A DNA stretch of 64,000 nt. Origin: Apostichopus japonicus (lineage: Eukaryota > Echinodermata > Holothuroidea > Aspidochirotida > Stichopodidae). The stretch spans positions 17,113,303-17,177,302 of the forward strand of contig NC_092581.1 of NCBI RefSeq assembly GCF_037975245.1, read 5' to 3'. The notes beneath the pieces were generated by a model. The model searched no databases, was not told where the DNA came from, and saw only the letters and a list, made by a program, of their open reading frames with translations. Below are positions 19,401-62,885 of the stretch, piece by piece; within the stretch, counting starts at the first letter, position 1, and each line of letters begins with the position of its first letter. The position numbers were made by a program, and so were the translations under genes.

Positions 19401-20919
19401 CGCTGCTATATGTACACTGTGTTGTGGGTATTGGCCGCAGCTGTATGTACTGACTGTACACTAGTGTCTAATTACCGACAGTAGCAAGCTGTGTGTGTAT
19501 TTTTTGGGATCGATGGTGGTGTCTAACACTTCTGATACATCTCAATCGAACCTAGGTCAGAGTACCGGCATGAGACATTTCTTTGTGCGGGAGTCTTCAC
19601 ACCCTTTAATGGCTTACTACTTTTGCAATGTTAGTAACATGCTCGTTTGACATTTGAGCATGGGCGACCATTATCCGACCTACTAGCATATTTCGGGGAC
19701 AATATTGAAGATCTTTAAACTGCCTTTATTTTCACTTTCGTCATCATCTTTCATGTTTGACTTCATTTTTAACTTCTTTACTTCAGATGAAATCAGAACG
19801 GGGACTTATAAATCGCTGTTCCACCCGGAGCAACTTATTACGGGTAAAGAGGACGCCGCTAATAACTATGCTAGAGGTCATTATACTGCGGGTAGAACGC
19901 ACATTGACATGGTAATTGACCGTTTAAGGAAACTTTCCGAACAGTGCTTTGGATTGCAGGGATTTTTGATCTTTCACAGTTTTGGCGGTGGAACAGGTTC
20001 TGGATTTACAGCTTTACTGATGGAACGGCTGTCTGTAGAATACGGGAAAAAGTCGAAACTAGAGTTTGCGATTTATCCAGCACCCACTCTATCCAGTGCT
20101 GTTGTGGAACCATACAACTCCATTCTAACGACTCATGTCACGTTAGAGCATTCAGATTGCGCATTCATGGTTGATAACGAGGCAGTTTATGACATCTGTA
20201 ATCGGAACCTGGATATTGAGCGGCCATCTTATACCAATCTAAATCGAATCATGGCACAAGTCGTTTCCTCAGTTACAGCTTCTCTGAGATTCGATGGCGC
20301 ACTGAATGTGGATCTGACAGAGTTCCAGACTAACCTGGTACCATACCCTCGTATTCATTTCCCTCTGGCCACCTACGCCCCTATCATCTCTGCAGAGAAG
20401 GCATTCCATGAGCAGCTCACAGTTGCTGAGATCACCAATGCTTGCTTCGACACCGCCAACCAGATGGTGAAGTGCGATCCTCGCCACGGCAAGTACATGG
20501 CCTGCTGTGTGCTCTTCAGGGGTGACGTCGTACCCAAAGACGTTAGTGCAGCCATTGCTGCCATTAAAACCAAGCGTACCATCCAGTTTGTCGACTGGTG
20601 CCCAACTGGCTTCAAGGTCGGCATCAACTACCAACCACCAACCACGGTACCAGGTGGTGACCTCCCCAAGCTCCAGCGTGCTGTCTGTATGTTGAGCAAC
20701 ACCACCGCCATCGCCGAGGCCTGGGCTCGTCTTGATCATAAGTTTGATCTGATGTACGCCAAGAGGGCGTTTGTCCACTGGTATGTGGGTGAGGGTATGG
20801 AGGAAGGGGAAATGTCTGAAGCAAGGGAGGACATTGCAGCCCTGGAGAAAGATTATGAAGAAGTTGGAACCGACTCTACCACTGGAAGCGAAGATTCTTC
20901 TGAAGGCGAGGAATATTAA
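13474..20919 (+). CDS. Alpha-tubulin, divergent isotype lacking Lys40
   Basis: Three coding exons: 13474-13476 (ATG only, then GTAAGT), 17694-17916 and 19787-20919 (TAA stop), total 452 codons plus stop; vertebrate alpha-tubulins are about 449-451 residues. Splitting the gene right after the initiator ATG is the usual alpha-tubulin structure. Visible features: [18 protein letters not shown] start, GTP-binding GGGTGSG loop near 142-148, the DLTEF segment carrying the catalytic Glu254, and a C-terminal GEEY ending suited to detyrosination. It polymerises with beta-tubulin into microtubules (family knowledge). Odd points: Lys40, the lumenal acetylation site, is Thr (MPSDTTIG); helix H3 and adjacent residues are unusual ([19 protein letters not shown]); the tail is Ser/Thr-rich rather than a glutamate run. 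Probably a specialised paralogue, not the housekeeping copy. Confidence 0.95.
13967..14279. mobile_element. Non-autonomous hAT-like element (313 bp) with 8-bp TSD
   Basis: Starts CAGGGCCGGACCTAAG and ends CTTAATCCGCTGGTG, imperfectly inverted. Flanked by ACCCTCCC at 13959-13966 and 14280-14287. The duplication lies in C-rich DNA, so it is a little less secure than the others. Confidence 0.7.
15838..15972. mobile_element. Partial hAT-like element, one terminus only
   Basis: The right end reads, on the minus strand, CAGGGGCGTATCCAGGATTT, a typical hAT terminus. The interior carries the module TGCCATTTCCGGTGATCTAG and GGCGCTCCGCTTAGATAGT, also seen at 18030-18140 and 49225-49310. The left terminus was not found. 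Confidence 0.6.
16149..16534 (-). mobile_element. TTAA-flanked MITE, copy 3
   Basis: Reverse orientation, flanked by TTAA at 16145-16148 and 16535-16538, in tubulin intron 1. It carries about 35 bp extra relative to other copies near the GACCTGAGATC position. Confidence 0.8.
16747..17136 (+). mobile_element. tRNA-derived SINE, near full length
   Basis: The head resembles a tRNA: A-box-like TGGTCAAGTGG (16758-16768) and B-box-like TGTTCGGGCCC (16802-16812). A conserved body (GTGTCCTTGGGCAAGGCGCT) follows, and the tail is (TTAA/AATT)n. A truncated relative is at 23785-23908 on the other strand. RNA polymerase III promoter boxes are inferred from position and sequence. Confidence 0.85.
17694..17916 (+). 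CDS. Alpha-tubulin coding exon 2
   Basis: Encodes residues 2-75, from [16 protein letters not shown] to VDLEPTVIG. Acceptor CAG ends at 17693; donor GTATAA starts at 17917 in phase 1. Codon 40 is ACA (Thr) instead of Lys. Confidence 0.95.
17989..18672. mobile_element. hAT-like element (684 bp) with CATAGGCGTACG ends and 8-bp TSD
   Basis: Starts CATAGGCGTACG and ends CGTACGCCTATG, a perfect 12-bp inverted repeat, flanked by TATACTCT at 17981-17988 and 18673-18680. The left half contains the CTAAGCGGAGCGCCACC module shared with other elements. Inserted 72 bp into tubulin intron 2 next to a (TA)n run. Confidence 0.88.
19255..19605 (+). mobile_element. TTAA-flanked MITE, copy 4
   Basis: Forward orientation, flanked by TTAA at 19251-19254 and 19606-19609, in tubulin intron 2 about 180 bp before exon 3. 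Confidence 0.8.
19787..20919 (+). CDS. Alpha-tubulin coding exon 3
   Basis: Encodes from [15 protein letters not shown] to the terminal EEY. Acceptor TTCAG ends at 19786. The first half uses mixed, AT-tolerant codons and carries most unusual residues; from about 20335 onward third positions become strongly C/G and the protein is more canonical. Confidence 0.95.
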
Positions 20920-21976: not shown

Positions 21977-23450
21977 ACCAGAATGCAAAATGCATTTAGG
22001 TTTCGATGACTTCAATGCACTAGACTTCTGCTTGTTAGTATAACCAGAACTAGCTGTTACAATAACACTATGGCATGCTAACACAGGTCAGTCTGTACGT
22101 GGTTATACACACCTCCATCAAAAACAGTAGGGTTCTTGTACTCAATGTTATGAATCCGCACACCAAGTATTACAAACCAAACCAAATCTCTAATAACTTT
22201 GCACATTAAGGTTGCAGAGGAGTCCACTTATGGACAATTTAGATTGGAATATGCCCACGAAACTTCAAAGAATCAGCTTGAAAGAAGCTAATACAGGTCA
22301 CTGGAGGTCAACCTGAGGTCAAAGGTCACCCAAATGCAGGTCGACTATTGTATTACAATAGCGTAACTCCCAACCTTGATGGACATTTGGTTCTCAAGTT
22401 ATTGCAAAAATACTAGTTTTTGACCCCTGATTGACCTTTGTTGACATTGGATCACATGACTGTTATGTTTTGAAACAATCCCTACCCCATTCACAACTAG
22501 TCCCAAAATATCAACCTTGTGGACCCTGTCAATGGTAGTTTCACAATTTATTGAGAAAAACTAGGCCAACATTACAGCCAACTCCATGAAGTGAAAGCAA
22601 ATCTCAAGTTCACAGGTGCTTGACCTAGTTTCTCCTTGGCAGCTGGCCAAGAAATGTTTTGAAATTTGTGGTACCTGTGCAACTTACATCCAACCAGAAC
22701 TACCAATGATCTACAAATATTTTCTAGAGAAGGCATGCTTCGCCATTCAAGTGCACTATTCCATCGAAATCACATCAACTCTTTAGCAAAATATCCATAC
22801 GGATGAGTGACAAGTGTTGCAGTAGCTCTAGCACTATTATATATCTATGGTCTGCAAGCAAGCCTTGGAAGACACTGTTACACACACACACATGTATGTA
22901 GCTATGTACATAGCAATTCAGGACCTCTAGCGACACACTTAAGTCAATGGGGATATTGTCGCGAGTTCAGATTCAAATCTACGGATGCCCGTAAGATCAT
23001 TTTCAATTGTCAATAGGCTCTCCTATTCTTATCAGGCGAATCGCCCATGTCATCTACTTATAGGCTGGACGATGGGAGATACCGTATATTATGAAAAGGT
23101 TTTTACAAGTTGACCCGTGGTGACCCTAAATGACCTTCGACATCCACCAAAAACGATAGGCTTTTTGTACTTAATGTGGTCAACCTACATACCAAATATG
23201 AAATCAATCCAAGCTTTGCTTTTTGAGATATGTTTACAAGCTTTTCACTATTTGACCCCTGGTGACCTTAAATGACCTCTGACCTACACCAAAAACAATA
23301 GGCTTCTTGTACTCAATATGGTACTCCTATGAGAACTGTCCAAGCTTCCCTTCTTGAGATATCGTGTCTACAAGCTGGGCGTCACAAACGCACACACACA
23401 CACACGCACGCACACGCATGATTGCAAAGGTTACGATTATCATCGAAACC
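21977..23450 (+). repeat. Dispersed repeat with TGACCTTTGACCTCC modules, long copy
   Basis: Starts ACCAGAATGC...GGTTTCGATGA and ends GATTATCATCGAAACC. The interior has several degenerate modules (GACCTCCACCAAAAACAATA, CTTGTACTCAATGTGG, GAGATATCGTG) and a CA-rich stretch before the end. No open frame of note. Confidence 0.6.
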
Positions 23451-23784
23451 AAAAAGGAGGATATTTCTAGCAAATTTAAAGTTTTCACATATAATTCAAT
23501 TCTGAAAACTCAATCATTTACAGTAATGTATTCAACGTTGCCGCTGAATTCTAAAAATTGACAACTTCAGCATAAAACTTGCTTTCATGAAATTTACTAG
23601 TCCAAGCACTGACTACGTAAAATTAAATAGAAGAATATATTAGTTAGTAGACAAATTAATCACATCTTTGTCGTTTCAGCTTGAGATAGATCCACTGATC
23701 AAAGAAACATCACAATATTCAGGGAATCAAAAAATTAACCAAGACTGATGACTATCCTGGGTCTACTCGCTCTGTATGATCTGT

Positions 23785-24722: not shown

Positions 24723-27700
24723 CTGAAATACTCGTTAAAGAAAATGATTCATTTTCGAAAATGGAATATACATGTACAGGCATAACATCATTCTAATATC
24801 TTTGTGTTCTCAGCCTGGGTCTCTGAGACTAATTAGTATTTAAAGGCATTGAAGACTCGCCCCAAACTGTGTGCCGCCCTCTGAAAAAGTTAAATTTCCG
24901 TTGCTTGCAAGTAAGTTTTTCTTGTCACTACAAATGCAGACAGCAATGAAACGTGATACCTTGTTATCTTTTATCTGGACCTGAGATGTCTATCGCTGCT
25001 ATATACACTGTGTTGTGGGTATTGACCTTAGCTGCATGCATTGACTGTACACTAGTGTCTAATTACTGACGGTAGCAAGCTGTGTGTGTATTTTCTGGGA
25101 CGGATGGTGGTGTCTAACACTTCTAACACCTCATTCGAAACTAGGTCAAATTACCTGCATCAGACGTTTCTTTGTGCGCGAGTCTTCACTCCCTTTAATA
25201 ACATTAACCATGGCAGACTCGGAAAATGAAACGTAAACACAAGACCTATATTTGGTATCTTTCCTATCCAGTCTGCTCTATGATGACAGGGTTTCATCTT
25301 CCAGTGTTTACACACATCAGCTGAGTGTAAATATTGTTTACACACATCAACTGAGTTTAAATATTGGTTACACATATCAGCTGTGTGGAAACCTACAGTA
25401 AATATTCTATTGTCAAGTGCTTTGATCCAGTATGTATGAGGCATGGCTCCAGTCAACTCCAGACCATGCCCCAGTATTAGAGCAGCTTCCAAATATTTGT
25501 ACCATCGTTGCTCTAATTGTTCGTCTTATCGAGGTTTACTTAATCATTCGGCGGCACTGGCTCAAGCATTTTTACATTTTTTTTACATGGTTAGAAAGAG
25601 AAAAATAATAACTAAAAGGACAATGTATCAAAACCTTCCACGAGACAATTCCTTTAAGCCTTCTTAGTTTTTAGATACTCTTTGACATGTTTCATTTCCA
25701 CTATCATTGTAAAGGATACTCAGATCAACACTTGGTGGAACTCGGAAGCCAAATGACTTGGCCACAAGGTTCAGATCCAGGCTTTGTACGTTGAAGATCT
25801 TCTTCAGCGAGTGGGAATCATATGACCTGATGTAACCTTTATATGCTTGCATTGCAGACATGTGCAGAAAATAATTCTTTTCCAACAGCTTCTCCAACTG
25901 AAAAATTTAGAACGATAAGAATGTTTAGCTACTATTAAAACAGAAAATGGATCAGATCCTTGTTACATAATTTTCTCACAAATTGATTGTGATGGCTTGG
26001 GGAGGGATGGGGAGGGAGGGGGATTGATTGATTCTAAGGGGGGGGGTGGGAGTGATTGATTCTAGATGGTAGACATAAAGCAAAATGTTTATGTCACTGA
26101 TCATCTCTAAGTAAATAAAGTAATAGCTGATTTTTATTCACTTGAAAACATGATTGCGGCTGACCGGGAGAATTTCTTGGAAGAGAATAACTTTCAATAT
26201 TTATTATTGTTCCGAGTTGATGGGGAAGGTTGGGATGGGCAGGTTACTCAGTTACTAACCACATCAAATTTAATACAATTGCAACATCTTCCAACTGAAT
26301 ATCAGAAGTTTTCTTGATCAAACTCACCTGAATTTGAATGTTGGCAATTTTACCCCAGGAGAAGTCATACTCATTTATTGGAACCTTGGCATGTTTCAGG
26401 TATCTAAGGAAACCAACTTCTTCAGGTCTCAAGATCAAGAGGGCATGACCCCTTCCATGCAGACCTCTGGCTGTCCTGCCAACCCTGTGGATGTATTCCT
26501 GCAAACAAGAAGACAACTTACGCTTTTAACCAGTGACAATGATATAAGCAGAAATCTTTCTCTGACTTCTGGGCAGGTCTTTTGATCATGACTAAAGATT
26601 TGGAAGTTATTTCCATGTACCAAATTTTCCTTATGCTGTCATGTTCTTAGTGGACCAAATCATCATACTTGGCCCATGTAACAGATACTTTTATGACAAA
26701 TTCTTCTCACAAACAGTTAAGGGAACTCTTATTCTATTTTGGAGATACTGTGTTTTAATGACAAGACCACAGACAATCATCAAGTCACTTGTGCATTAAT
26801 TGTTATAATCATTCTCAACAAAGACAGAGAGAAATAAAAAAGTTCTTGTACCCTGGTGAAACTATAGAACCCACTGTCGGCCATCTTTAATCATGGCATT
26901 TCCAAACATAGCAAGATTTGTCTTAGTGTTTTTGTTACCAAAATAACTTTTATGTACAACATCAACAACATCAGAACTAACACTGTCTGTTCAGAACATA
27001 ACAATATGAGCAACACAGTATTTACACTTTCTACTGACTATATTTGGTTTTAACTTGTCACATCAATCAAAGTACTTCTGCCATCAGAGTGACCTGAGGC
27101 TTTACCTTGGGGTCATCAGGGGGGTCAAACTGGACGATCCAGTCTACGGCCGGTATATCCAGTCCTCTGGCAGCTACATCTGTACATACTAAGATTCCTT
27201 GCTTAGCCTGACAGAACTGGAAGAATGTTGCTGTTCTATGCTGCTGTTTCTTTCGTCCCTGCAGGATAATGAAAACATTGTAATATGAATCATATAGTAA
27301 CCTTCTAACCGAAGGAAACCAATGGTTACAGCTACATCAAAGATACCACTGGTTCCACCTCTGCCACATACTAGTATATGAGTCTTCCTCATAGTTGGTC
27401 AGATTTGTATGTGGAAAATGGGCAATAATTATTAAAATGCATCGGAATTACCTTAATCAACACCAGTTTTATCAGATAACTGTCCCCTATTAACATCAAC
27501 ACATGCACTTGATGGTTAACTCAGCCGGTGTTTATCCCAACCACTTCCCCTGTTTGCTTCAAGTCTTCACATACATTAAGGCTAAGCCTAGGTTTAACTT
27601 ACTGTGACAATGTTTTAAATGCCTAGCAATATCAGTCCTATAGTCATCTACTTACATGTATACTAACGACAGGAAGGTCGATGTAGTTGAGCAGTTCGGA

Positions 27701-30700
27701 GTGAAACTTCACAGACATACACGAAGACATGAACACCATCACCTTCTTATTACGATTCTTCTTCAGAAAAGTGAAGAGAAGGAGAAAGCGTTTCTCCGAC
27801 GGACACAGAACGTAACCCTGATGAGAGAAGAGAGGTTTTCATGATCGATGCATCAACGAAGTTACAAATGCCAAATTGCAGTTTAGCCTGCAACAAATGA
27901 TCTTTGGAATATCCATTGCTCAGAATCAACTGAATTTAACACGTACTTCCTGCCTCACCATTTCAAGTGTACAACCATCACACATCAATTTTTTTAGAGC
28001 GGGACGAAACGACTCAGGAGAGGAATCATGATTGAATCAACTAGATTGTCAACAAAATGAAGGACAGCAACATTTTTATACAGTGGACCTCACATAGTCA
28101 GTTAGCAGTTAAATCTGGGATTAATATTACTCTCTTACGGTGGTGTTCACTTTCTCAGATAAGCCAAATAAATTTACAAGATGCATCAATGGTTTAAATT
28201 TCAATTCATATTTTCCCCCAATCTCACTCAAATAGCATTAGAATGTCCAATCCGCATTAAATCACCTACCTGTTCCAGACCATTTACAGTAGCTACAGTC
28301 TTCTCATCATCAACACCTATGTAAATGGGTTCTTTCTTCAGAGATACCCTGGCCAGATCTTCTGTCTTTCGTGTTTGAGTAGCCGAGAATAACATTGTCT
28401 GTCTCCTTTCTGTAGCAAAGAACATTGTCACCAGAAATTAAGATACAGACGAGTCTGTATAGAAACAACTGTAATGTATAACTGTTGAGTAGTTACCCTT
28501 CCATCTTTCAACATTGGTATTTGACACCAGTCCAACATGTGGGATCACAATACTACACTGGTTTAGTTAGACAATAGAATACTAAATATTATCCATATTG
28601 AGCTAAACTTTTACCTGCTTTTACCGCCTTGTAGTTATTTTTTAACAATTTAAAGTTTATATTCCATCAACTTATTTTTCATACAATGTAGGGATGAAAT
28701 ACTAAAAGAAATCAATCAAAATTTGTGAACAATCAAAGTCCTCAAGGTATTGTAAAATTCCAAGTTGGATTCTACTGGTGTGTATCCATGAGAATCAGAA
28801 GTATTGTCACCCCAAGAATCAGGACAAGAGCTATGTTAGCATTTTAATCTCTATCTTGACTGCATCAGAAATATCACAATCATCAATCTCATTATTAGAG
28901 TAATGAAGACCGTCGTGAAGTTATCATCACTTGCAGTACATTACACTAGGGTATCAAAGGTTACCGTAGCAACATTACCATAATATACCCTATGAAAGAC
29001 AGTCCCATCTATGGCTTGGAAGTTGAATACTGTACAGCAGCTAAAATGCAAATGAAGAGGGGGTGGGAAAAGTAATAAATGGCCCTGTGTCCTGCTCCTG
29101 CCCCTCTCTACCCGGCAAATCCCACACGGAAGGTTAACCCTCAGTTTACTCCTTGCATTGTTCTCTTACTTGGTAAAAGTTTGACAATCTGTTTTAGGTC
29201 CTCTTCAAATCCAATTTGTAGAATTCTGTCAGCTTCATCGATCACCAAGCACTGTAGATTCTTAAACATGAACTCTGGTGTTTTCTGATAAAAGAAATCA
29301 AACATTTCAGTCCACATTAAAGAAACCATCCATCACACATAGCATATAGATCCTACAAATGAGAGACTCCGAAATATTCATTAGAAGCTACAAATGACAT
29401 AATCATGTATATTCATTATATCCTGCAAATGATAGAATAATGAATATTCAATAGAAGCTAAAAGATTCAAAATCATGCATATTCATTAGAAGCTACAAAT
29501 GACACTGAGTGAGAGAGTTGTTGCACTAGCTACATTCATCTATATGTTTATGCAATGTCACACAAGTGTACGGTGTCCAACTAGCTACACTCACTGCTGT
29601 GTTTATCTGCTAGAATAATATGTATGTTTATGCTAGACCTATGTGAGTATCAGTATACTTATAATACCCAACAATCGATTCCCTTGTTATTACAATACAG
29701 AAAGTGAACTATGCCTCAAGTCATATACTTGTAATGTTTGCTCCTAGCATCAGTAAAACAACACAATCATCATTTCTAATTTGATATGAAGACCGTCGTG
29801 TGCTATCATCACTTGCAAGGAGCATAAGGCTTATTGAGATGTTAACAATTTAGTGCAATTTTGCAAATACATCAGTTCTTTCTACAACCAAAGTAAAACC
29901 CTATATATATCTGGAAATTAGAACACACACACTGTCTTCTTATCACTGTTAGATATTATTTTAAATAAACAAAAAACAGCAACCATTTCCACTTGGGTGT
30001 ATAAACAGCAGAATCTATGAATATTCAAAACCATTATTTTAATGTTCCCTAATCATCTAACAAGTGAGAAAAACAGTAGTGACTGATTGGAAAATCTTTA
30101 TACAGCAGTACTGACTTATAATTAGACTGTACCTTCATGTGGTCCAATAATCTACCAGGTGTTGCTACGAGGACGTTGATCCCCTTGGCTAACTTCTTGG
30201 CCTCAGTTCCTCTATGAGTGCCACCCATGACAATACCAAAGGTGTGATAGTGGTGCTCCATGACTTCCTTTACCACTCCATAAATCTGCATGCAGAGTTC
30301 ACGGGTAGGTGAGATGATGAGTACCCCAGTACCTGTACAGGAACGAACCGGTTAGATCATTCACAATATCATTAATAACGCTTATTTAGAAATTCAAAGA
30401 TTTCACAACATACCAAATTTTGTATTGATATTCATTTTTTAATTTTATTATTTTTAATGATATTCACAACTTAAAAGGTATTTTTGATGATTTTAGCTGC
30501 TGTTTACTGACATAACAATCCCACAGAGGTGAAACATCAACTATCAAACAGTTAGCTACTCGACTGCCTTTTACAGTCAAGGACATCACAATTCCTATTA
30601 TGGTAACTTAGCTTGATCAGTGTCAGTGAATAATAAGGCAGTACTTAGACAGAATGTCATGTCACATACTATGCATGAAAAGACACGTAGAGTATGACCA

Positions 30701-33700
30701 ACAAGTCAATGAGAATAATTATAACATCCGGTTGGCTTTGCACCACGTTAACTCAACTATGTGTAGCTGTTGGACTTGTTGTGTTTGAAGCATCATGCTT
30801 AACCTCAGCTGACCTCATGTGGCTTTTACCTCCTTAAAAAAAAATAGGTCTCTTAAGCTCCTTATGGGGCAGGGGCACGACAACATGTTCAGTTGACAGA
30901 CCTATTAACTGTGTGTCTGGATTCTTTTAATTTACAGTCCGAAACATCTCGTACACCATGACATACACTGACAATCACAACTGGTTAAATGACAGCAAGG
31001 AGTCCAGGACATAATTTATCCAGTATCGCATCACAAAATGCTATGCAAAGTTGTCACAATGCTTTTTTCAAGTCCAAAGATGCATAGCAAATTTTTACAC
31101 AGGAACCTTAAAACTTCAGAGCATTCAAAACTGCTACATAAAATTTTAGCATTAATCTCTATCTTGACTGCATCAGAAATATCACAATCATCAATCTCAT
31201 TATTAGAGTAATGAAGACCGTCGTGAAGTTTATCATCATTTGCAGTACATTACACTAGGATATCAAAGGTTATCATAGCAACAACATTACCATAGTATAC
31301 CCTATGAAAGACAGTCCCATTTATAGCTTGGCATTTGAATTCTGTCCAGCAGCTAAAATGCTATGAAGAGGGGGTGGGAAAAGTTTTAAATTGCCCCGTG
31401 TCCTGCTCCTCTATACCCAACACATCACCCCATACGGAAGGTTAAACCTCAGTTTACTTCTTGCATGTTCTCTTACTTGGTAAAAGTTTGACAATCTACT
31501 GACCTCATGTGACTTTTACCTGCATAAAAAATAATAGGTCTCTTGAGCTCCTCATGGGGCAGAACAACATATTCAGTTGACAGACCTCTTAACTGTGTGT
31601 CTGGATTCTTTTAATTTACAAAAAAACATTTCATTACTCCCTTAAGTCAAATATATGCTAGGTCACAACATTCTATGTTAATTGGTTATTAAAATAGAAA
31701 CTAACCATTTCTTGGCATAAATTTCAGCTTGTGGATAAGTTCAATTGCTGGAATAAGGAATGCTAGAGTCTTGCCACTCCCTGTCTTGGCAGCTGCCAAG
31801 AGATCTCTGAAGGAAAAAGGTAATATTATGAGGGATTAGCCTGGGTTAAAAAAATTCACTGAACTTTGTGGATGATACTATACTAAAATATAAAAAAACG
31901 TGGGAAACTTAAGAAAATATTGTTGATACTGTATAATGTTGGGAATGTTATGAAAATTCACAGAAAAAATTGCGGTATAGGCTCCAGTTTGTGTATGCTA
32001 CAGTGTGTAAGGATACTAGTTTTTGCCCCCCCCCCCTTGCAAGTTGGATATCCATCTGTAATGAAAAACATGCGAACGACGGAGCAAATGATACAACGCT
32101 GTTGTTAGAAATTCACGGAAATTGAGAGGTGTAAATCTCAGAGGTAGAAAAGAAATCCGCAGAAAAAGCTCATGCCTGTATTATAGTTAGCAAGAATGTA
32201 ACAGTCAATATCAGGTTACAGTGATGACAAGGACTGTCTAAAACACTGTTTGATATGCACCAACTTCATCACTTTATGCCTCCTTAAATGAAGAAGGGAA
32301 AACCATGAGCTAGATCTAATCGAGAGATTTGAAAGTTTGCTCCTGCCTGACATCAGTACAAACACAATCATCACTCCCTTATCGGATATGAAGACCGTCG
32401 TGTAGTATCATCATTTGAAAGGTGTAGAGGGTCTAACATTGTAAATTTAAGTGTTATTGGATTGACATGACTATCTCAACATTTAACAAATGATAGAACA
32501 TACAGTCACTCCTTCATGGGGATAATGAGGGGTAGGGGGCGGGGAGGTGGGGCTGGAGAGTGTACCCACTGTTATGATTTAAACTGATTGCAGGGAAGGG
32601 TTCAACAACCTCACAGCTGAAGATTCCATCTCATTTACAAGACAGAGTAGATGGGTACAAAACCACCAAGGAAATGGGTACAATATTTAGGACCCGAGTC
32701 ACACGAGGATCTGAATATGTCTGCAGTTCTTAACTGTTCGCAGTTCTTAACTGTTCGCAGTTCTTGTTCTGTTCGCAGTTCTTAACTGTTCATATCCCTT
32801 ACCTTCCCTCAAGGAGATGAGGTATGGACTTGGCCTGAATCTCTGTCATGTAAGTGAAACCCATGTCACCGAGACCTTTCAGAGTTTCGTCGCAAACTTT
32901 TCCTTCCAATGAAGCAAACGATGAGTTGGTAAGAATGGCATTTGTGGCTGAAAAGAAAACCAAGAAGGATATTTCCACTGGTCACTATTTCCCAGACCTT
33001 ACAAACCCCATTATAACCCTGAGGTCAAATTAAGGGATTTGAAACTATTTATTCCTGGCATCAGTACAAACGCAATCATCATTTCTGAATGGATATGAAG
33101 ACCGTCGTGTAGTATCATCATTTGCAAGAAGATAGTTTAGCAATGTACACTTATTGTGTCAGTGCTGTTCTAAAGGTTAAATTACATTGATATTGTTTCC
33201 TACATAATGGAGTAAACGATCAGTCAGTGGCTCAGGCAACAATCAATTCTGTGTTTCATTACCATGATGTTCTAAGCCTGGAAAACAATAGATAATGGAG
33301 TATTCATTTCCAAACATAACAATTGTTTCCATTCCAATATTAAATTTTCCATGGGCTTCCCAGGGAACCAGTATGTGAAAAGAATGGTGAAACTGACAAA
33401 TTCCAAACTAATGCCATCTTTGGGCTAGACTGCTAATGTATTGACACAAATCGTATATGCCAAGGCACCCAGATAACTATACGGTATGTCTATGCTCAAT
33501 ATAAATAAAAAGTCACATTCTAGTTATGATCACCTTTCTGAGCCTCAGACAATGGCACATCACCATTAACATCTGCCTCTCCTTGATTTTCATCAATTTT
33601 AAGACTTTCTTGAGAGGAATCACCGCTTTCCTTTGTCTCCACAGCATCAGTCTTTTCCTTCACCTCTGTCTCTTTAGATTCAACATCATCTTCTTCACCA

Positions 33701-35067
33701 CCATCATCCTCTGAGTCACTTTCCTCCTCAAGATCTTGTGTTCTCTTTTGTAAAGATTTACTCTTTCCCGACTTTAAATCTATTTCACTTTCAGAGACAT
33801 CTTCATCACTATCACTATCTTCTGATTCATTCTCTTCTGCCTCTAGTATTTCTTTGGTGTTTTTCATTCTTGCTGCATCTTGTTTTGATTTATGTCCTTT
33901 ATCATCATCATCATCATCATCATCATCAACGCTACTATCATCACTACCTTCACTCAGGGCATCATCTATTTCACTATCATCATCTCCATCACTCTCATCA
34001 ATTCTTTCTTGTCTCTTCTCCTCCTCCCTGACTGATGTATTTCCTTCCTCATATTCACTTTCTTCTTCACTTGACGCTACCTCTACCTTCTTCCCAATAC
34101 CAGACCTAGGATGTCCACGACCCCTACTTTCCTTTCTTGCAGTGAATTTTCCTACTGCACCCTTTCCTTTTAACTGTTTTGCATCCTGACTACCAGTTAA
34201 GTTCCTCTTTCCATCTTTTCCATTTTCTATCTTCTTCCTTTTATTCTTTCCTAGAAAGTAAATAAAGAATGAATGCTAAGAGTAGACTTGTTTTTATCTG
34301 AATCATTCTAAGCTACATCAGTGCCAGCCCAATCTTCTAATTTTGTAACTTCTGTTCTTACATAGACAGACAAGAGCATGAGAAGCATTACATTATACCT
34401 AGCCCATCACACACAACATAATGAAGGCACTGTAATCAGCAAAGCTGAACATTATAATAAGCCTCTGAAGAAGATCCTGCTAGGATCGAAACGTCAGGCC
34501 CTCTTACTTTTACACATTATAATCAGTATCTGTACATTTCATTACACCACTCACAACAAAATGAAGGCACTGTAAGCAGCAACACTGATCAATATAAGTA
34601 TAATAAGCACATTATAATAAGTATCTAATAAACCTGTCAACTAGATCAACTAAAGGTAGCAACTGTCAAAGATAAAAAAATATTTTTAGTTCAAAGCTAC
34701 CAGAAATAACAAAAGACGTTGCAACCTTGAAATAATCAAAGCAAATTGATGCACAGAAAGGCAGGCAAAAATGAGTAAACTGTACTGCTAGTACTGTAAA
34801 TATTAAAGCAAACTATTTGACGAATTCACACAATGCTCTCCACCATTTCCCCTCCCAGTTTAAGTAAAATTTTCAAGATTGCTTTTTCATGTTTCTTGTG
34901 ACTGATACAGGAAAATTGTACCCAATAAAATGACCTAGAAATTAACCAATCTATGGATTCATCTAAAAACAAGGGTTTTGTTAAATAATTCTATTTCAGC
35001 CTAAATAAATTTCTAACTTACCAACAATCACTTCCTGTGACTTTCTTTTCTTCATTTTATAAGATGT
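24574..35067 (-). CDS. DDX18: DDX18 (Has1) DEAD-box RNA helicase, complete coding region
   Basis: Twelve coding exons on the minus strand: 35022-35055, 33534-34250, 32803-32947, 31706-31806, 30133-30332, 29170-29284, 28270-28409, 27656-27817, 27106-27258, 26328-26498, 25720-25897 and 24574-24722. All junctions are GT-AG and in phase, total 2265 nt (754 residues plus stop); human DDX18 is 670, the difference being a longer acidic N-terminus. Visible helicase motifs: AKTGSGKT (about 304-311), PTREL, GG, TPGR, DEAD (415-418), SAT (446-448), [12 protein letters not shown] (593-600), then the DDX18-specific [13 protein letters not shown] region and a basic tail. Known role of the family: nucleolar helicase for pre-60S and 40S assembly and snoRNA release from pre-rRNA. 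Introns 2 to 6 each carry a C/D snoRNA. An acceptor-like TTTACAG just upstream of 35067 suggests a noncoding first exon farther right. Confidence 0.96.
24844..25194 (+). mobile_element. TTAA-flanked MITE, copy 5
   Basis: Forward orientation, flanked by TTAA at 24840-24843 and 25195-25198, inside the last DDX18 intron (24723-25719). Confidence 0.8.
25280..25394. repeat. About 30-bp tandem repeat, three to four units
   Basis: Degenerate units of GTTTACACACATCAGCTGAG type in the last DDX18 intron. Confidence 0.7.
25720..25897 (-). CDS. DDX18: DDX18 coding exon 11
   Basis: Encodes [20 protein letters not shown] and [15 protein letters not shown] to PPSVDL. The donor is GTATCC at 25719-25714. 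If it is not used, the frame runs 18 codons further to a stop at 25664-25666, giving an alternative short C-terminus. Confidence 0.9.
26328..26498 (-). CDS. DDX18: DDX18 coding exon 10 (motif VI)
   Basis: Encodes [20 protein letters not shown] and the segment to NIQIQ. Motif [10 protein letters not shown] is intact. Acceptor TTGCAG, donor GTGAGT. Confidence 0.96.
27106..27258 (-). CDS. DDX18: DDX18 coding exon 9 (motif V)
   Basis: Encodes [19 protein letters not shown] and then [20 protein letters not shown]. Motif V ARGLD is intact. Acceptor CTGCAG, donor GTAAAG. Confidence 0.96.
27656..27817 (-). CDS. DDX18: DDX18 coding exon 8
   Basis: Encodes [20 protein letters not shown] through [18 protein letters not shown] to SIH (motif IV region). 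Donor GTAAGT. Confidence 0.96.
28270..28409 (-). CDS. DDX18: DDX18 coding exon 7 (motif III)
   Basis: Encodes [20 protein letters not shown] with motif III SAT, then the start of RecA domain 2. Acceptor CTACAG, donor GTAGGT. Confidence 0.96.
28818..29190 (-). repeat. Segmental duplication, parent copy (intron 6 to exon 6 end)
   Basis: About 370 bp containing the intron-6 snoRNA, an AAAGACAGTCCCAT block, a GAGGGGGTGGGAAAAGT block and the 3' end of exon 6. It closely resembles 31140-31497 in intron 4. Confidence 0.85.
28859..28937 (-). ncRNA. C/D-box snoRNA copy in DDX18 intron 6 (SNORD35/snR73-like guide)
   Basis: Read on the minus strand: terminal stem ACUGCA/UGCAGU (6 bp), C box GUGAUGA (28930-28924), guide UUCACGACGGUCUUCAU, C'-like UUGAUGA, D box CUGA (28868-28865). 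The guide is complementary over 12 nt to 28S rRNA AGACCGUCGUGA, with one more possible G-U pair. Sense-strand intronic location fits processing from the host pre-mRNA. Shares a duplicated segment with the intron-4 copy. Confidence 0.85.
29170..29284 (-). CDS. DDX18: DDX18 coding exon 6 (DEAD box)
   Basis: Encodes [20 protein letters not shown] and LKQIVKLLP with motif II DEAD. Donor GTAAGAG. Its last 20 nt and donor are duplicated in intron 4 near 31478-31497. Confidence 0.96.
29345..29512. repeat. Degenerate tandem repeat in DDX18 intron 5
   Basis: Repeats of AAATATTCATTAGAAGCTAC / AAATGACATAATCATG type, two to three degenerate units. Confidence 0.6.
29740..29823 (-). ncRNA. C/D-box snoRNA copy in DDX18 intron 5
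   Basis: Minus strand: terminal stem GCUCCUUGCA/UGCUAGGAGC (9 of 10 pairs), C box GUGAUGA (29812-29806), guide CACGACGGUCUUCAU, C' AUGAUGA, D box CUGA (29753-29750). Eleven-nucleotide match to the 28S stretch. The long imperfect terminal stem is strong support for a real kink-turn snoRNA. Confidence 0.87.
30133..30332 (-). CDS. DDX18: DDX18 coding exon 5 (motifs Ia, GG, Ib)
   Basis: Encodes [20 protein letters not shown], then [16 protein letters not shown] and [15 protein letters not shown]. Acceptor TACAG, donor GTACAG. Confidence 0.96.
31140..31497 (-). repeat. Segmental duplication, second copy with truncated exon 6
   Basis: Duplicate of 28818-29190 placed in intron 4. It includes a snoRNA and the last 20 nt of exon 6 with its donor (31478-31497), but not the exon-6 acceptor. 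Next to it, 31497-31622 duplicates 30806-30945. Confidence 0.85.
31167..31246 (-). ncRNA. C/D-box snoRNA copy in DDX18 intron 4
   Basis: Minus strand: terminal stem ACUGCA/UGCAGU, C box AUGAUGA (31239-31233), guide UUCACGACGGUCUUCAU, C'-like UUGAUGA, D box CUGA (31176-31173). Nearly identical to the intron-6 copy because both lie in a local duplication, yet the boxes and guide stayed intact. Confidence 0.85.
31706..31806 (-). CDS. DDX18: DDX18 coding exon 4 (motif I)
   Basis: Encodes [20 protein letters not shown], the Walker A/motif I segment, to KFMPRN. Acceptor TTCAG, donor GTTAGT. Confidence 0.96.
32346..32421 (-). ncRNA. C/D-box snoRNA copy in DDX18 intron 3
   Basis: Minus strand: C box AUGAUGA (32414-32408), guide CACGACGGUCUUCAU, C' GUGAUGA, D box CUGA (32356-32353). 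The terminal stem is weaker than in the other copies (about 5 of 7 pairs), so the ends are approximate. Confidence 0.78.
32723..32791. repeat. 17-bp tandem repeat, four units
   Basis: Units of CAGTTCTTAACTGTTCG in intron 3, ending about 12 bp from the exon-3 boundary. Confidence 0.9.
32803..32947 (-). CDS. DDX18: DDX18 coding exon 3 (Q-motif region)
   Basis: Encodes [17 protein letters not shown] and [22 protein letters not shown], the F...MTEIQ Q motif that contacts adenine in DEAD-box proteins. Four 17-bp direct repeats lie just beyond its donor. Confidence 0.95.
33052..33130 (-). ncRNA. C/D-box snoRNA copy in DDX18 intron 2
   Basis: Minus strand: terminal stem UUCUUGCA/UGCCAGGAA with one bulge, C box AUGAUGA (33121-33115), guide CACGACGGUCUUCAU, C' AUGAUGA, D box CUGA (33064-33061). 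Its 3' end is about 104 nt upstream of the exon-3 acceptor; the other copies lie several hundred nt from theirs. Confidence 0.85.
33534..34250 (-). CDS. DDX18: DDX18 coding exon 2, charged N-terminal extension
   Basis: A 717-nt exon encoding a lysine-rich start ([18 protein letters not shown]), a middle basic/GR-containing part, then long Ser/Asp/Glu stretches including nine consecutive Asp encoded by a (GAT)n tract at about 33901-33927. Such tracts are typical of nucleolar proteins. Ends AQK plus G; donor GTGATC. Confidence 0.9.
33901..33927. repeat. (ATC)n microsatellite inside DDX18 coding exon 2
   Basis: Nine ATC units, read on the minus strand as nine GAT (Asp) codons in the acidic N-terminal region. 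Confidence 0.9.
34378..34640 (+). mobile_element. Retroelement remnant carrying the hammerhead motif
   Basis: Two degenerate direct copies of a CACAACA(T/A)AATGAAGGCACTGTAA block (about 34408 and 34549) lie on either side of the hammerhead. Direct repeats with hammerheads occur in the pseudo-LTRs of Penelope-like elements (family knowledge). No reverse transcriptase sequence is seen here. Confidence 0.45.
34461..34499 (+). ncRNA. Candidate minimal hammerhead ribozyme
   Basis: Order of parts: stem I GCCT (34461-34464), core CTGAAGA (CUGANGA, 34465-34471), A, stem II GATCC-TGCTA-GGATC (34473-34487), GAAA (34488-34491), CGTC with cleavage triplet GUC (34493-34495), and AGGC (34496-34499) pairing with GCCT. 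Stem III is only the palindrome ACGU, as in hammerheads that act as dimers. This layout is known from Penelope-like retroelements and retrozymes. The strand is opposite to the host gene DDX18 (intron 1), so it most likely belongs to a retroelement remnant. Confidence 0.65.
35022..35067 (-). CDS. DDX18: DDX18 first coding exon
   Basis: ATG at 35055-35053; encodes [11 protein letters not shown] plus one base of a glycine codon. Donor GTAAGTT. The TTTACAG before 35067 marks a probable 5'-UTR intron. Confidence 0.85.
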
Positions 35068-35594
35068 CTGTAAATGTGGAAAATAAAACATGATGGTATT
35101 TATCAACTTACTATAACTGATGTGCACAGTATTTCATCAACAAATGGAGAATTAGTTAAACCCGAGTTGCCAAATATCTTGAGTTTGAGAACTGGGAAAT
35201 TGTGGGTTATGGAGACCATTGATTGCTTTCAGAGAATCAGGATGACCTTGAGATGACTGGTGGTCTTCATCATTTCATAAAGCTTTCAATGTTATAAGTA
35301 ACTGATTAGTGGGATCACAAAGATACACTACACTTCGAAGTATGGAAACGTAATGTTCAACTTTTGTGAACCGTTCCACTAAATTGGACACAGGGAGGTG
35401 TACTTAATATGAAATGCCCAAGAGTACAAATGTCAACTTTTAAAGGTAAACGCACAAAGTTGATCAAAACTTTCTCAAGTGGGAACAGTTACAAATTATG
35501 CTCTGAATTTTATCTTTAAACAAAGCAAGATAGAAGGGAATATCACCAAATGATAAAATTATGGAATAATACACATTCATTTTCCTCCCTTTCA

Positions 35595-45833: not shown

Positions 45834-62885
<17,052 letters not shown>

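Follow-up and report, generated by a model that had tools for sequence, protein, structure and literature searches.

Five SNORD35-like box C/D units in consecutive introns of DDX18 in the sea cucumber Apostichopus japonicus

Introduction

Why does a helicase gene carry the same small element in each of five consecutive introns? The question is raised by DDX18 in a stretch of 64,000 nucleotides (nt) of Apostichopus japonicus DNA (NC_092581.1 of assembly GCF_037975245.1, positions 17,113,303-17,177,302). We call this stretch the window, and all coordinates below refer to it. A preliminary description of the window read the elements as paralogous box C/D small nucleolar RNAs (snoRNAs) and knew of no such family in DDX18. 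From comparison of the sequences, we conclude that the five units are very probably intronic copies of the box C/D snoRNA SNORD35 (U35; snR73 in yeast), a set grown partly by duplication. The conclusion puts a name to the guide of a repeat family that would otherwise be anonymous.

Results

DDX18 carries one unit in each of five consecutive introns

The host gene lies on the minus strand. Its exon map covers the start-codon exon to exon IX.

26328..35067, minus strand: host gene DDX18, exons joined at splice sites; the reading frame continues beyond exon IX
35067-35022, minus strand: start-codon exon, joins exon N in frame (first 60 residues printed)
34250-33534, minus strand: exon N
32947-32803, minus strand: exon II
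31806-31706, minus strand: exon III
30332-30133, minus strand: exon IV
29284-29170, minus strand: exon V
28409-28270, minus strand: exon VI
27817-27656, minus strand: exon VII
27258-27106, minus strand: exon VIII
26498-26328, minus strand: exon IX

Once joined, the nine exons N to IX form a single stop-free frame with GT..AG at every junction. The best PDB match of the helicase part is DDX18 itself (chain 9ptu_C, E 7.1e-209), and yeast HAS1 (11aa_p) is matched at 6.6e-178. Because the start-codon exon begins at a splice acceptor, a noncoding exon likely lies 5' of it. The units were originally assigned to introns 2 to 6, which holds when counting begins at the start-codon exon; the likely upstream exon would move each number by one.

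The five units are given below with their boxes and their scores against RF00211, the Rfam model of SNORD35.

33052..33126, minus strand: c33.1, SNORD35-like C/D unit in intron N-II, 34.6 bits; C 33121-33115, guide 33109-33099, D' 33097-33094, C' 33082-33076, D 33064-33061
32344..32419, minus strand: c32.4, SNORD35-like C/D unit in intron II-III, 28.0 bits; C 32414-32408, guide 32402-32392, D' 32390-32387, C' 32374-32368, D 32356-32353
31164..31244, minus strand: c31.2, SNORD35-like C/D unit in intron III-IV, 35.3 bits; C 31239-31233, guide 31225-31215, D' 31213-31210, C' 31194-31188, D 31176-31173
29741..29817, minus strand: c29.8, SNORD35-like C/D unit in intron IV-V, 32.2 bits, fold z -4.86; C 29812-29806, guide 29800-29790, D' 29788-29785, C' 29773-29767, D 29753-29750
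28856..28935, minus strand: c28.9, SNORD35-like C/D unit in intron V-VI, 31.5 bits; C 28930-28924, guide 28917-28907, D' 28905-28902, C' 28886-28880, D 28868-28865

One unit falls in each of introns N-II (33533-32948), II-III (32802-31807), III-IV (31705-30333), IV-V (30132-29285) and V-VI (29169-28410), and none is in the next three introns, VI-VII to VIII-IX. All are sense oriented relative to DDX18, a ribosome-biogenesis gene, and the 3' splice site follows each at a distance of 104-831 nt. Flanking stem included, they measure 75-81 nt. Box C (RUGAUGA), C' (NUGAUGA) and D (CUGA) are present in every unit, as first described, and the exon map and a count of the shared 15-mer bear out the arrangement of one sense-strand unit per intron. 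The identical 15-nt core reported earlier also exists in five identical copies, but it is a composite of an 11-nt guide, one further nucleotide and the opening three bases of a D' box that is degenerate and had gone unnamed.

How rare is this combination? The 15-mer, CACGACGGTCTTCAT, has five matches in the window at up to 2 mismatches, all of them on the minus strand; shuffled sequences average 0.04, and five or more matches were reached in 0 of 100 shuffles. Across the 671.6-Mb assembly it occurs in five places and its reversed control in none; unassembled stretches might hide more. Box C followed by CACGAYGGTCT within 3-12 nt likewise occurs in five places in the assembly, which are the five units (control, 0). 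A looser wobble pattern occurs in 29 places, five of them the units, and its reversed control in 12.

The shared guide points to 28S rRNA

The guide, CACGACGGUCU, is in all five units the exact antisense of AGACCGUCGUG in 28S ribosomal RNA (rRNA). That stretch is printed in a Daphnia 28S primer (PMC3036644) and a human 28S primer (PMC3626359), and as antisense in a yeast 25S probe (PMC6136799). Paired with the Daphnia sequence, c28.9 and c31.2 form a duplex of 13 nt upstream of D', one pair of which is G-U; in c29.8, c32.4 and c33.1 it is 11 nt long.

We placed D' where an ungapped alignment puts CaGA of the SNORD35 consensus, which we take to be the D' box of U35; the units read CAUA or CAUU there. 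Given this SNORD35-derived register, the D'+5 rule selects the first C of AGACC in all five. We take this cytidine to be human Cm4506 and yeast Cm2959, by an offset from yeast Um2921 and E. coli numbering. Human 28S-Cm4506 is tabled to SNORD35A (in RPL13A) and SNORD35B (in RPS11) (PMC8393311), and yeast Cm2959 is tabled to snR73 under the label PTC (PMC8307265). A single table row joins Cm3292/CD23, Cm2959/snR73, Cm4506/U35A/B and Cm2949/AtU35 (PMC8817022), and the entry for chicken U35 gives one listed site, a 13-nt 5' antisense element and a place in RPS11 intron 4 (PMC2653536). Each unit is probably a single-guide RNA, because the spacer on the D side is only 11-13 nt long and varies.

SNORD35 is the best-ranked family for every unit

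The top Rfam family for all five units is RF00211, matched over the full model (1-88), with E-values of 1.8e-5 to 0.0025 in 4.4 kb and 0.00027 to 0.037 in the whole window. Matches to snoR44_J54, SNORD103, snoU31b and other Rfam C/D families were weaker. Of 12,716 candidates from a genome-wide scan with RF00211, 58 were scored; the 11 matches listed are headed by three of the five units. The eight matches outside DDX18 scored 22.1-27.4 bits. Four stretches from among these were inspected; L001 and L003 are without the guide, and L002 and L005 are satellite-like tandem repeats. The host here is DDX18 and not RPL13A or RPS11, which host SNORD35 in human and chicken. We hold the host to be nondefining because snoRNAs are known to change genomic place (PMC3412847).

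Boxes and guide are conserved more than spacers

From C to D, boxes, guide and the first three D' bases are invariant across the five copies in 31 of 33 columns, against 13 of 36 for the spacers (Fisher p 3e-7); the 33-column set includes the nucleotide before D', and the fourth D' base counts as spacer. The most similar pair behaves in the same way, as c28.9 and c31.2 differ by 1 substitution and 1 gap column in 81 within the unit and by 23 and 16 in 284 in the flanks (p 0.022 for substitutions alone, 0.0025 with gaps).

The terminal stem had been offered as evidence of selection, on the ground that its sequence changes while pairing is kept. Over its 7 pairs, 82.9% of 35 cells pair, a value reached in 11 of 500 shuffles, and its covariation score was reached in 10 of 500. 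The pairs do change, but both-sided changes fall in only 2 of 7 pairs, which 236 of 500 shuffles equalled. Moreover, the covariation amounts to effectively one event because the changes are confined to two near-identical copies. Stem covariation is thus weak evidence for selection, weaker than claimed, and the conserved guide and boxes, judged from the alignment, are the better evidence.

What weighs against SNORD35

Several observations count against the assignment. At gathering thresholds, Rfam returns nothing anywhere in the window. The C/D models to which the preliminary description had pointed do rank SNORD35 first at all five loci, but every score (28.0-35.3 bits) lies under the RF00211 gathering cut-off of 36 bits, a value set by curators for automatic listing and no biological feature. 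Because the covariance-model scores stay below that cut-off, we infer membership in SNORD35 rather than report it. Two of the five units are absent among the 11 matches listed in the whole-genome scan. Moreover, the RF00211 model gives matches below the cut-off in 14 of 14 prokaryotic controls, and thus its scores alone decide little.

The target prediction has its own soft points. D' is degenerate and the D'+5 result hinges on its SNORD35-aligned position, a register that, being inherited from that alignment, is no independent test. The 28S target of A. japonicus itself had 0 matches in the assembly at up to 1 mismatch, possibly because it is unassembled, so pairing was checked on the printed 28S of other species.

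Structure is uneven as well. The stem said to close most units is unbroken (6 bp) in two of five, c28.9 and c31.2, but carries internal mismatches in c29.8, c32.4 and c33.1. Those three fail a strict scan (box C exact, D exact, stem of at least 4 bp) because their stems are interrupted; in the window the scan returns four rows, namely, c28.9, c31.2 and two overlapping plus-strand rows at 49572-49680. Folding energies, which cover c29.8, c33.1 and c28.9, are exceptional in c29.8, ordinary in c33.1 (z -0.28) and modest in c28.9 (z -1.32).

The plus-strand rows at 49572-49680 are C/D-like with a 4-bp stem, have no Rfam match at E ≤1 and are possibly due to chance.

Part of the set arose by intragenic duplication

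How did one gene come to hold five units? Two segments are 89% identical over 365 alignment columns.

31143..31497, minus strand: segment with c31.2
28833..29190, minus strand: partner segment, the part of intron V-VI with c28.9 plus the end of exon V

The segment in intron III-IV includes an unchanged copy of the final 21 nt of exon V together with the splice donor. Because the exon V tail and donor were carried along, DNA of the region of exon V and intron V-VI was copied into intron III-IV, and the flanking intron and exon mark the event as a duplication of DNA. From c28.9 and c31.2 we conclude that duplication within the gene accounts for at least part of the growth of the set. Intron III-IV also holds a direct duplication of 88% identity (30809-30936 and 31499-31620); it adjoins the c31.2 segment, and together the two look like a composite insertion. 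The remaining unit pairs are alike over 74-110 columns, barely beyond the unit.

DNA searches of the assembly found no copy outside DDX18. With c33.1 there were three matches (c33.1, c32.4 and c29.8; c28.9 and c31.2 were missed), and with the c28.9 segment there were two (itself and its partner). The reach of both searches is limited, as each missed some of the five units.

Two further observations concern these introns. The displaced end of exon V (31477-31497, minus strand) retains an intact donor inside intron III-IV and is a possible cryptic donor. A short imperfect tandem repeat with an offset of about 70 bp lies at 29347-29504 (plus strand), in intron IV-V near c29.8.

A candidate sixth element and other features of the window

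Does DDX18 hold more C/D-like elements? Model R2, built from the five units, has eight matches in the window at E ≤10. Besides the five units, these comprise two matches at 15.2 and 13.9 bits and a candidate sixth element (21.7 bits, E 0.011 in the window).

27425..27515, minus strand: candidate sixth C/D-like element, DDX18 intron VII-VIII, two introns past the five

In the element, GUGUUGA takes the place of both C and C', D' reads CUGA and D reads CCGA; the terminal stem has 8 bp, and the U35 guide is absent. Ten sub-threshold Rfam matches fall there, nine of them to C/D families and one to a telomerase RNA, the best being snoR38 (22.9 bits against a cut-off of 45), and its fold is no better than that of shuffles (z -0.02). 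We consider it a divergent and weaker candidate with noncanonical boxes, outside the SNORD35 set. As a lead only, GGGACAGU upstream of its CUGA could pair with 28S ACUGUCCC, which we take to lie at the yeast Cm2197/snR76 site. Cm2197 and its guide snR76 are listed together in PMC8307265.

Elsewhere in the window, 23307-23522 (minus strand) matches SCARNA7 at 32 bits (cut-off 65, E 0.001), a match that is probably repeat driven because the frames there read as CA/TG repeats. An open frame at 19687-20919 (plus strand) resembles the large exon of an alpha-tubulin gene.

Discussion

How would the units act? We infer transcription, processing, assembly into small nucleolar ribonucleoproteins (snoRNPs) and methylation activity for all five. 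By the known route of snoRNA biogenesis, spliced and debranched DDX18 introns would release each unit, and the released units would be bound by the C/D snoRNP proteins 15.5K, Nop56, Nop58 and fibrillarin. They would then guide 2'-O-methylation of the cytidine equivalent to human 28S Cm4506 and yeast 25S Cm2959, in the region of the peptidyl transferase centre.

Perhaps DDX18 is a dosage-coupled unit in which helicase and U35 guide output rise together and the splicing of single introns tunes methylation, an idea that we regard as doubtful. Yeast Has1, a ribosome-assembly helicase and by the PDB matches the homolog of DDX18, works on 90S and pre-60S particles, and release of the C/D snoRNA U14 has been linked to it (PMC9196750). 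By the pattern of box C plus guide, DDX18 is the only source of the U35 guide found in the assembly. Ribosome-biogenesis genes commonly host snoRNAs, such that host and guest serve the same pathway. DDX18 appears to fit that common pattern, and no special coupling is indicated here.

Paralogous intronic box C/D snoRNAs, as first proposed, remain the best reading in light of the Rfam ranking, the exon map, the conservation and the D'+5 result. Not every copy need work, however. One or two of the five may be productive and the others recent or decaying passengers, similar through youth or gene conversion. The close duplication of c28.9 and c31.2, the interrupted stems of c29.8, c32.4 and c33.1 and the low score of c32.4, the lowest against SNORD35, would suit such passengers. 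We nonetheless think the explanation unlikely: the five units share the same guide, D box and first three D' bases although their spacers differ, and even the close pair differs less in the unit than in the flanks. Conversion of boxes and guide that spared the intervening spacers also seems unlikely.

Alternatively, the units might form a C/D family of their own, a new one with a guide that matches the U35 target through chance or convergence. Scores below gathering, a length of 75-81 nt against an 88-position model and poor alignment in the C'-D part would be in keeping with a new family. SNORD35 nevertheless ranks first for every unit, box C plus guide occurs nowhere else in the assembly, and the guide sits in the 5' (D') position, as listed for chicken U35 (PMC2653536); we find a new family very improbable. 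Slimmer still is the prospect that the units act mainly in cis on DDX18 splicing by pairing with their own pre-mRNA. Intronic snoRNAs that pair with the adjacent intron to regulate host splicing have been reported (PMC10324135), but the guide matches 28S exactly, and AGACCGTCGTG-like sites, tested for the guide alone, are absent at 0-1 mismatch on the sense strand of 25000-35300, with one at 2. Least credible is a mobile repeat or retroposed element that landed in DDX18: snoRNAs can reportedly move by retroposition (PMC3412847), but the many sites that the preliminary description expected of such a repeat were not seen in pattern searches or in DNA searches of limited reach, all five units are sense oriented in a single gene, and the best-preserved duplication carries flanking intron and exon.

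If the units are copies of SNORD35, a conserved rRNA guide is found, by pattern search of the assembly, only in DDX18, which holds five copies, and not in ribosomal protein genes. The locus would then offer a handle on how snoRNAs switch hosts and multiply via intron duplication, and on whether guide copy number sets the level of methylation near the peptidyl transferase centre.

How new is the arrangement? The claim of novelty must be narrowed, as the units look like SNORD35/U35/snR73 and paralogs in neighboring introns are common, but a DDX18 host does appear to be unreported. We found no literature pairing DDX18 with SNORD35, though papers writing only U35 would escape such a search. DDX18 is treated as a Myc target and snoRNP factor in PMC4430873, and passages of a sea cucumber study report snoRNAs enriched in introns and name none of these units (PMC8580430). 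Thus, DDX18 as host and the fivefold copy number of one rRNA guide appear to be the new features.

The closest known relatives are SNORD35A and SNORD35B (U35; RF00211), in RPL13A and RPS11, which share the C/D anatomy, the 5' (D') guide, the 28S stretch and the one listed site. The units differ from them in the DDX18 host, the five copies and a shorter C'-D part, and their guide is fully Watson-Crick, whereas the Rfam SNORD35 consensus CACGAUGGUCU has one G-U. Yeast snR73, Dictyostelium CD23 and Arabidopsis U35 are listed at the equivalent large-subunit cytidine (Cm2959, Cm3292 and Cm2949, respectively) and are likened here by listed site only. In arrangement, the units resemble SNORD116 in SNHG14, with one copy per intron in consecutive introns, although SNORD116 has 29 and is described in passages of the same source as lacking known targets (PMC11608373), unlike the conserved rRNA guide here; its host is a long noncoding gene (PMC5748676), whereas DDX18 is coding. 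Spread of paralogs across the introns of one host by intragenic duplication is presented as the usual case among vertebrates (PMC2653536). Chicken C/D and H/ACA sets in the same source have paralogs in neighboring introns that arose by intragenic duplication and kept their guides, with other guides and hosts; one of them, GGgCD61, also has five paralogs, but by mixed intragenic and intergenic duplication. Finally, sponge RPL13A carries an H/ACA snoRNA in two copies as neighboring-intron paralogs (PMC3412847), where DDX18 of A. japonicus carries a C/D unit, very probably SNORD35, in five.

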